From contig JAJFIS010000025.1 in assembly GCA_021774735.1 (NCBI GenBank), positions 1 through 64,000 of the forward strand: 64,000 nt of DNA. Reading direction: 5' to 3'. The notes under the pieces were generated by a model. The model was not told where the DNA came from, searched no databases, and saw nothing but the letters and a program-made list of their open reading frames with translations. The stretch comes from Alphaproteobacteria bacterium. Its GTDB lineage: Bacteria; Pseudomonadota; Alphaproteobacteria; Sphingomonadales; Kordiimonadaceae. Made by a program: the position numbers and the translations under genes. This document shows positions 36,542-41,571 of the stretch, in pieces; position 1 is the first letter of the stretch; every line of letters starts with the position of its first letter.

Positions 36542-36647
36542 CCCACTATCCTTATTATTTAGCCATCACTCCCTGGGCCTCTCCCTAGGGGATCATAGGT
36601 TATGGCTATTGTATAAATTTCCTTGAAATAGCTAAATATTGCATTGA

Positions 36648-36666
36648 TTTGCTGCGTTGCAGCAAA
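36648..36666. promoter_or_regulatory. Perfect inverted repeat, candidate PhaR-type operator
   Basis: An 8-bp perfect inverted repeat, TTTGCTGC and GCAGCAAA, with a three-base spacer, 82 bases upstream of the -35 of phasin 1. The core CTGC-N3-GCAG matches, from memory, the site reported for PhaR repressors of alphaproteobacterial PHA genes. No phaR is in the window. Confidence 0.5.
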
Positions 36667-36747
36667 ATAAATATATTAGTAACTAATTGATTTATATGAA
36701 TATATATTGAAATTTGAAATTATTTTCTATATTTTTGAAAATAATAA

Positions 36748-36776
36748 TTGACGCAGTGCAGCATTTTTACTATAAC
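36748..36776 (+). promoter_or_regulatory. Sigma-70-type promoter of phasin 1
   Basis: -35 TTGACG (36748-36753), a 17-base spacer, -10 TATAAC (36771-36776). The block 36743-36768 is identical over 26 bases to 39275-39300 ahead of phasin 2. The spacer holds GCAGTGCAGC, TGC-rich like PhaR-type sites, so a repressor could sit between the boxes. Confidence 0.75.
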
Positions 36777-36839: not shown

Positions 36840-37163
36840 ATGGCTAATGCAAAAATTGCTTTACCTCAGATCGACGAACTTAAAGATATTTTCAATCTTG
36901 CTGTAAAAGGCAATCGTTCCCTTATTGAAAAGCAAGTTGAATTCGCTCAAGCAAATGCAAATCATTTCTTTGATAGCTTGCGCACAGTGACTAGCTCAGA
37001 AGACCTAACATCAGCCGGCCAGAGCCAAGTTAAGATGGCAATGGAAGGTGTTGAACGCTCCATGGAGCAGGTTCGCGAATTAGCACAGCTTGCCAACGGC
37101 AATCGCAAAGAGCTTCAAGAAGCTGTAAAAGATTATCTGCCATCGATGCCTGGTAGCAAGTAA
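36840..37163 (+). CDS. Phasin-family granule-associated protein
   Basis: 107 residues, fully helical in appearance, with the phasin_2-like pattern of Phe/Leu heptads: LKDIFNLAVKGNRSLIEKQV and EQVRELAQLANGNRKELQEA. Phasins coat polyhydroxyalkanoate or neutral-lipid granules. A very good AGGAGA ribosome site precedes the ATG, and a strong promoter and a clear terminator flank it, fitting an abundant structural protein. No phaC synthase gene is in the window. Confidence 0.85.
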   Translation: MANAKIALPQIDELKDIFNLAVKGNRSLIEKQVEFAQANANHFFDSLRTVTSSEDLTSAGQSQVKMAMEGVERSMEQVRELAQLANGNRKELQEAVKDYLPSMPGSK

Positions 37164-37197: not shown

Positions 37198-37282
37198 GGG
37201 GGCGTCCGGTTATCCCCCCCATCTATATACCCTTAACTGGACGCCCCCGACGACCTGACTCTATAATGTCAGGTCGTCTTTT
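37198..37282 (+). terminator. Double hairpin terminator after phasin 1
   Basis: Two adjacent perfect stems: GGGGGCGTCC (37198-37207) with GGACGCCCCC (37239-37248), then GACGACCTGAC (37249-37259) with GTCAGGTCGTC (37268-37278) followed by TTTT. The second has the form of a Rho-independent terminator; the first, with no spacing between them, may protect the phasin mRNA 3' end. Confidence 0.85.
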
Positions 37283-37363: not shown

Positions 37364-39097
37364 ATGGAACAGTTGAGCCCAATCGACGCATCTTTCATCT
37401 ATATGGATGGCAATAATCAGCCAATGCATATATCAGGTTTAAACATTTATGATCCGTCGACTATTCCGGCCGACCGCTTGAATGAAAATGGTGTCCTGTC
37501 GCATAAAGAAATTTTGCGCACTTTTGAAAAAACATTGCCAAAAATTCCTGCCATGCGCAAACGCTTGATCCGGGTCCCCGCTGATCTCGACCATCCTTAT
37601 TGGGCAGATGACCCTGATTTTTCTCTTGAATTTCATGTACGCCATATTGCCCTGCCAAAGCCCGGTGATTGGCGGCAGCTGTGCATTCAAGTGGCACGTT
37701 TACACGCCAGACCCCTAGATACCAATCGCCCCTTGTGGGAACATTATGTTATCGAAGGCCTCGACAATATCCCTGGAATTCCCAAAGGCTGTTTTGCAAT
37801 TTTTTCGAAAATTCATCACGCGCTTGTTGATGGGGCATCGGGTAGTGACTTCATTGGTGCCACCCATACGTTGCGCCCTGAAGATCCGCCTTATGAAGTA
37901 GAAGACACATGGACCCCCAAACCTTTGCCCACTACACCCGAAGTGCTATTGAAGTCTTACTTAGACACTGTCACCAACCCTATGAAGCTGGTCGAATCAG
38001 TTTCTAAGGTTACAAAAACAATAACGCGCTTTGGCCAATCTATTGCTACGGGTAAATATCAACGCCCACCGAAAAAGGCTGTTACACGCTTCTCTGGTGG
38101 CCTATCGCCAAACCGAGTTTTTGATGCGCGTGTTTTCCCGCTTAAAGTTATCAAGCAGATCAGCAAAGCATCAAATGCAACGGTTAATGATGTTCTTGTA
38201 ACCATTACCAGTGGTGCTGCTCGTAAATATCTACTGGGCAAAGGTGAGCTTTTGGATGATCGTTTGACCGCTATTATTCCGATGAACATCCGCTCTGAAG
38301 CAGAAAAAGGAGCCAACGGCAATCAAGTAGCAACGCTGTCTAGTGAGATTGGTTGCCACATCGAGGACCCTATTGAGAGGCTTGCTTTTGTCCATGGTGC
38401 CATCCAAAGTCAAAAAGAATTTACTAACGCTCTTGGTGCCCGCGAAATAATCGATTCGATCGGCACAGCCCCTGCCGCCTTGATGTCCCTTGGGATGCGC
38501 GCAGCAGTTATGTCGGGCAGTTCAGAAATGAACGCCTTAGTACCAGGCAATATGACCATTACCAATGTACCTGGGCCACAAATACCCCTGCATTTTTGCG
38601 GCGCTAAAATGGTTGCTATGTTTGGCGGCGGCTGCATTTTGACCGGTGCTGGTCTGTTTATCATCTTATTAAGTTATAACGGCATGATATCCATGAGCGT
38701 CACTAGCGACAGAGCAATGATGCCCGACCCTGATGTATTTGCTGATTATCTGCAAGAAAGCTATGATGAACTGGTGCGTGCCACATTGGGTGAAGATGCT
38801 CTTGTTGCGCTTGACCCCAACCAAACAGAGACCGCCTTTGAAGTACCGCTTGCAAAATTACCACGGACACAAGTTGCGGTTAAGGCAAAAGCTGCTCCAA
38901 AGAAAAAGGCTGTAAGGAAGGCTACGGCCCAAAAGGTGGCCCAAAAGACGGCTAAAAAAACTGCGCCCAAGAAATCAGTGGCTAAGAAAATTGCAACGCG
39001 CAAAACCACGCTCAAAAAGGTTAAAGCTAAGAAAGCCTCACCTAAAAAAGCTGCTGCATCAAAAGTAGCCACACTTAAGAAAAAAATGAACCCCTAA
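37364..39097 (+). CDS. Wax ester synthase / diacylglycerol acyltransferase with histone-like C-terminal tail
   Basis: 577 residues. The N-terminal ~500 form a WS/DGAT enzyme: catalytic HHxxxDG is KIHHALVDGASG near residue 150, and the conserved NVPGP occurs in TITNVPGPQIP. The family makes wax esters or triacylglycerol from acyl-CoA. The last ~75 residues (from VAVKAKAAPKKKAVR) are almost only Lys, Ala, Thr, Pro, Val and Arg, like the AAKP tails of PhaF and histone H1; this is not part of the normal enzyme. Phasin genes flank it on both sides. Confidence 0.92.
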   Translation: MEQLSPIDASFIYMDGNNQPMHISGLNIYDPSTIPADRLNENGVLSHKEILRTFEKTLPKIPAMRKRLIRVPADLDHPYWADDPDFSLEFHVRHIALPKPGDWRQLCIQVARLHARPLDTNRPLWEHYVIEGLDNIPGIPKGCFAIFSKIHHALVDGASGSDFIGATHTLRPEDPPYEVEDTWTPKPLPTTPEVLLKSYLDTVTNPMKLVESVSKVTKTITRFGQSIATGKYQRPPKKAVTRFSGGLSPNRVFDARVFPLKVIKQISKASNATVNDVLVTITSGAARKYLLGKGELLDDRLTAIIPMNIRSEAEKGANGNQVATLSSEIGCHIEDPIERLAFVHGAIQSQKEFTNALGAREIIDSIGTAPAALMSLGMRAAVMSGSSEMNALVPGNMTITNVPGPQIPLHFCGAKMVAMFGGGCILTGAGLFIILLSYNGMISMSVTSDRAMMPDPDVFADYLQESYDELVRATLGEDALVALDPNQTETAFEVPLAKLPRTQVAVKAKAAPKKKAVRKATAQKVAQKTAKKTAPKKSVAKKIATRKTTLKKVKAKKASPKKAAASKVATLKKKMNP

Positions 39098-39133
39098 TAC
39101 CAAATACCTAAAATTACAATTTACGTCATCATG

Positions 39134-39160
39134 CGGCCCTGAATATTTTCGGGGCCGTTT
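39134..39160 (+). terminator. Terminator after the WS/DGAT gene
   Basis: A nine-base stem, CGGCCCTGA (39134-39142) with TCGGGGCCG (39149-39157), one G-T wobble and a six-base loop, followed by TTT. It lies about 40 bases past the stop and separates the gene from phasin 2, which has its own promoter. Confidence 0.75.
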
Positions 39161-39279
39161 GCCATTTAAATGCTGCATAGCAATATAAATTATTTATATT
39201 TCGCGTTAAAATTACTATATACTTACTAATACACTGAACTATATGCATTATTTATTTTCTAAAATAAGTTAGAAAATAA

Positions 39280-39308
39280 TTGACGCAGTGCAGCATTTTT
39301 GATATACC
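39280..39308 (+). promoter_or_regulatory. Promoter of phasin 2, duplicated from that of phasin 1
   Basis: -35 TTGACG (39280-39285), a 17-base spacer, -10 TATACC (39303-39308). The 26-base block 39275-39300 is identical to 36743-36768. A weaker TGCT...AGCA dyad at 39171-39182 sits about where the palindrome 36648 lies relative to the first promoter. Confidence 0.75.
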
Positions 39309-39360
39309 TTACTTCAATACAGTTATTTATGCCCATACACATCCCGATTGGAGAGATATA

Positions 39361-39846
39361 ATGACCGAAGTAAAAACAGCAAAAACTGACGTGAAGACAA
39401 TTAAAGCGCCAGCTTCTAAAGCCCCTAAAGCAAAGCGCAAGGTAGCCGCAAAAGTGAAAGTTGCTGCCAAACCAGCAGCCAAAAAAACCCGGGTTAAAAA
39501 AGCCCGCGCGAAAAAGGTCGTTTTCGAAACGCCTAAAGTGGAAAACAACAGCAAACTAAATAAAGTTTCTACGCTTACTGTTAAGAACATTCGCACCATC
39601 AGCAACAAAGGCATCGACTTTAGCCAAGATAACGTCAACCGCGTTTTTGATGGTATCCGCAATATTATCAACGCAAAAGGCCTCGCATCTCTTGGCCGTG
39701 CACAAGTAAAATTACTTGTTGAAAGCATCGAATCTGACATGGACCATGCCCGTGATGTTGCCAAGATTGCTAATGAAGGCCGCAAAGAAATTCAAGACCT
39801 AACAAGTGATCTGCTACCAAAGTGGGGCCGCAAGGACGCCGCTTAG
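39361..39846 (+). CDS. Phasin-family protein with basic histone-like N-terminal tail
   Basis: 161 residues. The first ~60 are Lys/Ala-rich (KAPASKAPKAKRKVAAK and onward). Residues 70-161 match phasin 1: NVNRVFDGIRNI and ARDVAKIANEGRKEIQDL align with its NANHFFDSLRTV and VRELAQLANGNRKELQEA, so the two are paralogues. I chose ATG 39361, behind GGAGAG; a TTG-initiated extension would start inside the -35 box. The tail resembles the DNA-binding regions of PhaF and PhaM, so this protein may link granules to the nucleoid (inference). Confidence 0.85.
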   Translation: MTEVKTAKTDVKTIKAPASKAPKAKRKVAAKVKVAAKPAAKKTRVKKARAKKVVFETPKVENNSKLNKVSTLTVKNIRTISNKGIDFSQDNVNRVFDGIRNIINAKGLASLGRAQVKLLVESIESDMDHARDVAKIANEGRKEIQDLTSDLLPKWGRKDAA

Positions 39847-39887
39847 TATATCTGACATTTGGCCTTCCTCCAGCTGGTCATACAAAG

Positions 39888-39923
39888 AAAAAGGTTCAAC
39901 CAATTTGTGGTTGAGCCTTTTTT
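39888..39923 (+). terminator. Terminator after phasin 2
   Basis: A 15-base stem (39888-39902 with 39908-39922, one G-T wobble), a five-base loop ATTTG and a trailing T run. The A run on the left arm means it can act on both strands, so it may also end the leftward hydrolase transcript. Confidence 0.88.
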
Positions 39924-39969
39924 ACATGAAGAGCCCTAGAGATATGGATTTAGACCTTGGAGGCCTATT

Positions 39970-40746
39970 TCAGACGACGGCAGGTTTTGGGTAAACAATC
40001 CGCTGCCAAGCTGACTTTTTAAAAGGCTTCCAACTATCTTGACTTTGAGCCATTCGGTCCATGATCACACGCAACGTTGGGCCGTGCATCCCCATACCAA
40101 CATGACTTGCTATAACTTCAACATTTTCTCTAAAATCCGATGTTGGCTCTACACATGTCCGCCAATTCACGACGCCGTCCATTTTGGAATAAACGCTGGT
40201 CGTGGGCACATGTAACGGGTGGCCCATTTCTTGCGATTCCATTTCCACAGCTTCTTTGAACTGGTACCCCATCGCCATTTCAACAGCGCCGTAAGCCCAG
40301 CTACTTTTGCCCTGATTTATAGCGCCATAAGGACTACCTAGCGTCACAACAGATTCAACCATTTCAGGCTTGTCCCGCGCAATAGAGCGCGCATAAATGC
40401 CGCCTAAACTTTGGCCAACAAGGCGAAGCTTTTGGCCGCCATGATCGGCTGATATTTTGGCAATACGCCCTTCAAGAGCGCTCAAAACATGCCAACGTGG
40501 CCCCAAATTGATCCCTAAGTCCCATCCGTAAGCTTCATAACCAAATTTTTTCATCAAACCGCGCATAATGGCCGTGGAGCGGTCTCCTGTGCCAAACCCT
40601 GGCAGAACCAATATTGGCTCACCGTTCCCTCGCGGAACATTTGACATGAAAAACCCTGCCCAACTTAATGTAGACAGATCTGTTACCGCGCGAACCCCTT
40701 CGCTTGCTGCCAGCAACACTGACGGCTTTTTATAGCTACGTTGCAT
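39970..40746 (-). CDS. Alpha/beta hydrolase, lipase-like
   Basis: 258 residues. Oxyanion region ILVLPGFGTGDR, nucleophile elbow GQSLGG near residue 112, an Asp in SKMDGVVNW and a His in SHVGMGMHG complete a plausible triad. No signal peptide. In a granule cluster an intracellular esterase or lipase acting on stored lipid is a reasonable guess, not shown. It lies 18 bases after the TetR gene and is likely co-transcribed with it. Confidence 0.83.
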   Translation of the reverse strand: MQRSYKKPSVLLAASEGVRAVTDLSTLSWAGFFMSNVPRGNGEPILVLPGFGTGDRSTAIMRGLMKKFGYEAYGWDLGINLGPRWHVLSALEGRIAKISADHGGQKLRLVGQSLGGIYARSIARDKPEMVESVVTLGSPYGAINQGKSSWAYGAVEMAMGYQFKEAVEMESQEMGHPLHVPTTSVYSKMDGVVNWRTCVEPTSDFRENVEVIASHVGMGMHGPTLRVIMDRMAQSQDSWKPFKKSAWQRIVYPKPAVV

Positions 40747-40764
40747 TCTTCTTCCCCTGTTTAC

Positions 40765-41571
40765 TCATGCAGGTTTGCCCATACTTTCATTTTCACCTGC
40801 TCCCCTTGAGCTCGGTAATAGATTAGACAAACTGCGCATTACAAAATCAACTGTGACCCCACCTAGGTCAATCACTGAAAGCGCCGACCCAAAGGGTAGC
40901 TTCCAGCTTTGCATAAAAATTAATGATCCAAAAATTAAAATGGCTGTGGCTTCAGGCTCGCACCAGCCGATACTGCCATCTTTCACACCGCTGCGGAGCA
41001 AACTCGCCAAACGATTGACGTTATCTTGCAGGTCTTGCTTTAATTCATCGCGGTGGATTTCCTCCAAGAAGCTCGGCTCGCCCGGCATAGCCCAAAATTC
41101 TTGCTCGCGGATATCAACGAGCGTGTTCTTAACAAAATTTTCGACCTTTCGCAGGCCGGAAACATCCAAATTTTCAGCTCTGGTCAAATTCTCACCAACC
41201 AGATTATAGGTTGCCTTTAAACATTCAAAAGCCAGATCTTCCTTGCCGGTAAAATAATAATAAAGCGCCCCATTGGTCATATCCAATTGCTTGGCAACCG
41301 CTTTCAGGGAGGTTTCATGGTAGCCCATATCAGAAAGCAACTTTGAGGCTGCCCGCACAATAGATACACGTTTGGCACTTGGCTGGCCACGCTTAGAAGT
41401 TTTTGATTTTACCGCTGAAACTGTTTTTTCTATGGGCTTGTCTTTTGCCTTTAGACCACGTTTTTTGGCCTTGGGCCGCTTTTTAACTTGGGCACGCTTT
41501 CTTGCTTCAGGCTTCGCTTTAGCGCCTCCCGCAATGCCCTTTGCACTTTTATTTTCTGCATGGTTCGTCAT
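40765..41571 (-). CDS. TetR-family regulator with basic N-terminal extension
   Basis: 268 residues. The helix-turn-helix domain (about residues 68-115) includes VRAASKLLSDMGYHETSLKAVAKQLDMTNGALYYYFTGKEDL; this is ordinary for TetR. Ahead of it are ~65 residues rich in Lys, Ala and Arg (GGAKAKPEARKRAQVKKRPK and on), far longer than usual. There is no ATG between 41571 and the HTH, so the extension is probably translated; an internal GTG cannot be excluded. The ligand-binding domain ends in a hydrophobic helix. A 24-bp palindrome lies 125 bases upstream. Confidence 0.85.
   Translation of the reverse strand: MTNHAENKSAKGIAGGAKAKPEARKRAQVKKRPKAKKRGLKAKDKPIEKTVSAVKSKTSKRGQPSAKRVSIVRAASKLLSDMGYHETSLKAVAKQLDMTNGALYYYFTGKEDLAFECLKATYNLVGENLTRAENLDVSGLRKVENFVKNTLVDIREQEFWAMPGEPSFLEEIHRDELKQDLQDNVNRLASLLRSGVKDGSIGWCEPEATAILIFGSLIFMQSWKLPFGSALSVIDLGGVTVDFVMRSLSNLLPSSRGAGENESMGKPA

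Follow-up and report, generated by a model that had tools for sequence, protein, structure and literature searches.

A putative neutral-lipid droplet locus with histone H1-like Lys/Ala tails on its synthase and on a phasin in a Kordiimonadaceae bacterium

The genome of an alphaproteobacterium of the family Kordiimonadaceae (GenBank assembly GCA_021774735.1) carries on contig JAJFIS010000025.1 a cluster of five genes, in the order phasin 1 (+), wax ester synthase/diacylglycerol acyltransferase (WS/DGAT; +), phasin 2 (+), alpha/beta hydrolase (-), and TetR-family regulator (-). We analyzed the first 64,000 nucleotides of this contig, hereafter the window, to which all cluster coordinates refer. 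Three of the five proteins bear Lys/Ala-rich tails of the histone H1 type. We propose, with moderate confidence, that the cluster is a neutral-lipid droplet locus and that the tails of the synthase and of phasin 2 bind a polyanion, most likely DNA, thereby keeping the droplets on the nucleoid. Gene content supports the storage-granule cluster recognized in a preliminary description of this DNA, which had placed tails on the WS/DGAT, phasin 2, and the regulator and none on phasin 1. That distribution was borne out, as follows:

38849..39094, + strand: C-terminal Lys/Ala tail of the WS/DGAT, residues 496-577, 82 amino acids, net charge +30
39361..39516, + strand: N-terminal Lys/Ala tail of phasin 2, 52 residues, net charge +18
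41371..41571, - strand: N-terminal basic tail of the TetR-family regulator, residues 1-67, net charge +19

The WS/DGAT tail comprises 27 Lys, 3 Arg, and 19 Ala residues with no Asp or Glu, while no 50-amino-acid stretch of phasin 1 exceeds a net charge of 0. The charge-hydropathy rule predicts disorder for all three tails but not for the WS/DGAT core. The likeness to basic DNA-binding tails noted earlier holds as well, the composition fitting that of tails reported to bind DNA in PhaF, AlgP, MLDS, and HbhA. For the regulator, the next in-frame ATG, GTG, or TTG is codon 72, inside the TetR_N domain (Pfam boundaries 71-116), so that the tail must be translated if the helix-turn-helix is to be whole; the doubt once attached to its translation would stand only if that motif were cut as well.

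Such tails are rare in this genome. Across 1.263 Mb of its sequence (1173 open reading frames [ORFs], 45% of the genome), the tail threshold was reached by nine ORFs, three of which belong to the cluster; if the nine were placed at random, three would fall among four consecutive genes with a P of about 0.0012. The remaining six encode an HU-like protein, topoisomerase I (TopA), FtsK, in which the Lys/Ala stretch is internal and not at a protein end, an ArfB-like release-factor homologue, and two proteins without a Pfam match. The four that could be named all act on nucleic acids. The HU-like protein (L162 19655-19933, contig C41) is encoded near a lon-like gene and ends in a long KKAAPKK tail resembling that of mycobacterial HupB. 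A 259-amino-acid protein lacking a Pfam match (L221 17869-18648, contig C14) ends in KKAPKKAAKKPAKK repeats.

The search for WS/DGAT homologues covered 248 genomes from the order and 385 from the class, and a sample was examined together with its surroundings (loci designated by L numbers). We called orthologue-like those with at least 36.5% identity, a threshold of our own, and counted as a tail a C-terminal stretch of net charge +8 or more. On this basis, 68 of the 81 orthologue-like WS/DGATs are tailed versus 6 of 20 more distant ones, with a median tail over the 81 of 56 residues and net +16. On the tree, the trait required 11 changes compared with 24.2 for shuffled labels, and none of 500 shuffles gave a value as low. 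What is conserved is the composition of the tail and not its sequence, and solved WS/DGAT structures align to residues 2-470 only. Close relatives therefore do possess the tails, whose absence there had been considered at the outset, and the idea that they are unique to the cluster was rejected; a tailed WS/DGAT had first been taken for a peculiarity of this locus, but most orthologues across the order and class have the tail. A scan of named genomes for a related locus returned a single distant one, in Seongchinamella. The literature library that we searched, in which subscription papers are mostly missing, yielded no description of a similarly tailed WS/DGAT.

The surroundings of the WS/DGAT genes in relatives (1069 ORFs, scanned with a fixed tail threshold) yielded 57 tailed WS/DGATs and 16 other tailed ORFs, namely, six HAD-AGPAT fusions, nine PhaF-like or PF05597 phasins, and one other. 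The fusions, which join a phosphatase domain to an acyltransferase and carry C-terminal histone H1-like tails, occur in L056, L058, L060, L061, L062, and L104 (1973-3616); HAD-AGPAT corresponds to the steps preceding DGAT. The nine tailed phasins (L064-L072) come mostly from the window's own family, and those PhaF-like proteins tested score below the PF05597 gathering threshold except L069 3685-4128 (48.9 bits). These PhaF-like phasins have a coiled coil and a C-terminal Lys/Ala tail and lie about 5 kb from the WS/DGAT, L070 466-975 being an example. N-terminal Lys/Ala segments are also frequent on the Phasin_2 proteins of relatives, and a polyhydroxybutyrate depolymerase (PF06850; L175 3469-5103, genome G073) contains a Lys/Ala-rich segment.

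Of the 81 orthologue-like WS/DGATs, about 59 by our count have a hydrolase of this family in their vicinity. Phasin_2 genes above the Pfam cut-off occur near the WS/DGAT in L076, L089, L194, L199 (two), and L204, to which our own phasin profile adds L077, L080, and L086. Most of these loci show the order of the window, WS/DGAT (+), phasin (+), hydrolase (-), and other families have it as well (L076, L077, L080, L089, L194, and L199). Among the sampled neighborhoods, a TetR orthologue adjoins the hydrolase in one case only, L193, and there it has just a shorter basic arm. In the parts of a sediment WS/DGAT survey available to us, PHA (polyhydroxyalkanoate)-related genes, a phasin, and hydrolases are described near some of the genes and tails are unmentioned (PMC10351704).

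The assignment of the five genes is based on the following:

36840..37163, + strand: phasin 1, 107 amino acids, no tail; Phasin_2 (PF09361), E 1.5e-12, 48 bits
37364..39097, + strand: WS/DGAT, 577 amino acids; PF03007, E 3.5e-61; TIGR02946, 380 bits against a cut-off of 310
39361..39846, + strand: phasin 2, 161 amino acids from ATG 39361; Phasin_2 (PF09361), E 2.4e-9, 37.8 bits
39970..40746, - strand: alpha/beta hydrolase, from the GQSLGG nucleophile elbow and the family alignment
40765..41571, - strand: TetR-family regulator, 268 amino acids; TetR_N (PF00440), E 8.9e-14; orthologue adjoining the hydrolase in L193

Both Pfam domains, an NCBIfam score above cut-off, and HHALVDG at residues 151-157, which fits the HHxxxDG motif, place the synthase in the WS/DGAT family, with a predicted acyltransferase activity making triacylglycerol (TAG) or wax ester. 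Both phasins exceed the Phasin_2 gathering score of 24.9; a PDB search with phasin 2 gave no match. The mechanical ORF of phasin 2 opens at TTG 39280, a start that we rejected because this TTG falls in the -35 box of the phasin 2 promoter; translation likely begins at ATG 39361, which GGAGAG precedes. The preliminary description overlooked the hydrolase gene, which separates phasin 2 from the regulator. When the hydrolase profile was compared with PDB, the best matches after one alpha/beta hydrolase were triacylglycerol hydrolases (E 6e-9), and it is a probable neutral-lipid lipase. Downstream of phasin 1, an 11-bp inverted repeat with an 8-base loop followed by TTTT was read by eye at 37249-37282. 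It is probably a terminator, in which case the WS/DGAT would be transcribed separately from phasin 1.

Which granule the locus serves follows from what else the genome encodes. The assembly (2.78 Mb, 51 contigs, completeness rating of 100%) contains one WS/DGAT and two Phasin_2 proteins, both in the cluster, as well as PhaR (PF07879, E 2.5e-29) elsewhere, on contig C22. We found in it neither PhaC_N (PF07167), present in 218 of the 248 genomes of the order, nor a match to the class III PHA synthase profile (TIGR01836). Because no class I or class III PHA synthase is detectable in the genome, a TAG or wax ester granule is more likely than a PHA granule; of the two granule types first suggested, neutral lipid is thus probable and PHA is not retained. 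Of the traits of a PhaF-type tether, the PF05597 phasin domain has no match in the whole genome; the combination of a phasin domain with a histone-like Lys/Ala tail does exist in phasin 2 (Phasin_2 plus its 52 residues). Judging by its title, a study of Ralstonia eutropha PhaP1 reports that this phasin, expressed in Rhodococcus, localizes to TAG inclusions (Haenisch 2006, cited in PMC6273058). Given a phasin known on TAG inclusions and a genome with a WS/DGAT, phasins, and PhaR without a PHA synthase, we infer phasin-coated neutral-lipid droplets. A second genome, G082, was dropped as a further case lacking a PHA synthase, as it encodes a distant PhaC-like protein (L188 943-2514). This protein has a basic C-terminal tail and no Pfam match, and it scores 82 bits with TIGR01836, below the cut-off.

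The phasin genes appear to share a regulatory input. Three sites in the window match in full the PhaR consensus of Sinorhizobium meliloti, WNWD2NYGCRNYGCRNH2WNW (PMC12542648), and every one lies at a phasin promoter:

36647..36667, no strand: candidate PhaR-type operator 1, containing the perfect palindrome TGCTGC-GTT-GCAGCA; the operator also fits CTGCNNNGCAG
36746..36766, no strand: candidate PhaR-type operator 2, overlapping the phasin 1 promoter (TTGACG 36748-36753, 17 nt, TATAAC 36771-36776)
39278..39298, no strand: candidate PhaR-type operator 3, overlapping the phasin 2 promoter (TTGACG 39280-39285, 17 nt, TATACC 39303-39308)

Operators 2 and 3 are identical over their 21 bases, and the two promoters are alike, TTGACGCAGTGCAGCATTTTT being identical in both. 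Shuffling the window gave a mean of 0.8 matches, and three or more occurred in 6 of 100 shuffles. The 1.263 Mb of the source genome contains nine consensus sites, six of them outside the cluster (two intergenic, four inside ORFs), and the WS/DGAT has none in the window. With a PhaR gene in the genome and candidate sites at both promoters, PhaR control of the phasin genes is likely, as judged from sequence matches. Elsewhere, on contig C14 (L223 14900; C14:34900 region, 60001-80000 stretch), a site lies between a cobalamin-adenosyltransferase-like gene and an electron-transfer-flavoprotein beta-like gene, just upstream of the latter, and is a possible further PhaR target.

We propose a model in which the locus would provide a synthase (the WS/DGAT), two phasin coats, a lipase-like hydrolase, and a regulator for TAG or wax ester droplets. 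The tails of the WS/DGAT and phasin 2 would act as disordered polycations binding a polyanion, most likely chromosomal DNA. Nascent as well as mature droplets would be held on the nucleoid and shared at division, as by PhaF for PHA and MLDS for Rhodococcus droplets, and PhaR would probably repress both phasin genes until droplets accumulate.

Several observations weigh against this model. DNA binding and tethering by the tails are deduced from composition, by analogy, and polyphosphate, RNA, and acidic membranes are further possible ligands of poly-Lys/Ala tails. Tails are short or absent in the WS/DGAT orthologues of L198, L203, L048, and L037, and these genomes also encode Lys/Ala-tailed proteins of other kinds. 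A divergent PHA synthase may be hidden in an assembly gap or beneath the reach of the profiles. Moreover, most relatives with a tailed WS/DGAT also encode a PHA synthase, and one group (L076, L089) has a PHA-synthase-like gene near the WS/DGAT; with that enzyme common in such relatives, the tail is no marker of PHA absence.

The main alternative concerns the target of the tails. They could bind another polyanion (polyphosphate granules, RNA or ribosomes, or acidic membrane lipid), which would bring the synthase and the coat to that target instead of to the chromosome. The ribosome is the target of ArfB, whose release-factor-like homologue is one of the other tailed proteins here, whereas the three other nameable ones, the HU-like protein, TopA, and FtsK, act on DNA. 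AlgP, with its KPAA tail, is found on polyphosphate granules, whose spacing it sets, but its tail binds DNA too (PMC9239181), and we regard such a destination as rather unlikely. It is more doubtful still that the tails are tolerated low-complexity extensions serving solubility, charge, or crowding, without tethering, and are neighbors by coincidence in a tail-rich lineage. The similar stretches on other proteins and the conservation of composition alone would suit this explanation, but the clustering of three of so few tailed ORFs argues against it, as do the retention of the tail on the main WS/DGAT clade, with paralogues mostly devoid of it, and the nature of the tailed neighbors in relatives, almost all neutral-lipid or granule proteins.

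For the regulator alone, and compatibly with droplet tethering by the synthase and phasin 2, the tail is rather probably a basic N-terminal arm adding minor-groove contacts at its own operator. According to its title, a study of the TetR repressor SimR describes a flexible N-terminal extension that binds the minor groove (Le et al. 2011, cited in PMC5812520), and the L193 orthologue retains just its shorter arm; on the other hand, 67 residues are long for such an arm, and the composition is like that of the neighbors' tails. The earlier suggestion that the regulator shares the granule anchor is unlikely because TetR proteins bind DNA anyway and the L193 arm is shorter. Finally, two phasins, PhaR-type operators, and a PhaR gene could point to a locus for PHA granules, DNA-tied as by PhaF or PhaM. 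With the WS/DGAT sitting between the phasin genes and no class I or III synthase in a genome rated complete, this is very improbable, and we rejected it on the missing synthase.

A broader hypothesis, which we put forward tentatively, is that the neutral-lipid line of alphaproteobacteria (HAD-AGPAT, WS/DGAT, and phasin) repeatedly acquired H1-like tails on folds unrelated to one another, which would place both the synthesis and the storage of TAG at the nucleoid surface; phasins would serve as droplet coats in a species whose capacity for PHA synthesis has been lost. The tethering of granules to DNA by a Lys-rich tail is already known, so far via dedicated coat proteins (PhaF, PhaM, and MLDS); what is new is the tail on the synthase and on other TAG enzymes. 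If the proposal is true, the synthase tail, conserved over many genera, fixes the site of fat synthesis, and not just the finished droplet, to the chromosome. The locus would also be a natural example of phasins where the genome has no detectable PHA synthase, and the tail a simple marker for neutral-lipid loci in alphaproteobacteria, whose TAG and wax ester storage is little studied.

Among known systems, solved bacterial WS/DGATs (PDB 6chj and 7nxg) share the catalytic and C-terminal domains and the HHxxxDG motif, but their chains of 455-463 residues have no such tail. Mycobacterial HupB and HbhA likewise join a folded domain to an AKKA/PAKKA tail conferring DNA binding (PMC5676037, PMC10665949), yet they are nucleoid proteins and not lipid synthases. 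The histone H1-like KPAA tail of Pseudomonas aeruginosa AlgP organizes a storage granule (PMC9239181), in that case polyphosphate and without a lipid enzyme. PhaF of Pseudomonas putida, through its AAKP-repeat tail, and PhaM of Ralstonia eutropha tie storage granules to the nucleoid (PMC5658603, PMC3556143) and are, like phasin 2, granule-coat proteins; their granules are PHA, whereas phasin 2 has a Phasin_2 fold with an N-terminal tail and no PF05597, in a genome with no detectable PHA synthase. In Rhodococcus jostii RHA1, the Lys-rich C terminus of MLDS binds DNA without sequence specificity and holds droplets on the genome, and the regulator MLDSR is also located on lipid droplets (PMC5504291). 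In reported function and tail type, the features compared here, MLDS resembles the present proteins as a lipid-droplet protein with a DNA-binding Lys-rich tail; there, a dedicated structural protein is tailed, whereas here the tail is on the synthase itself and on a Phasin_2 coat protein.

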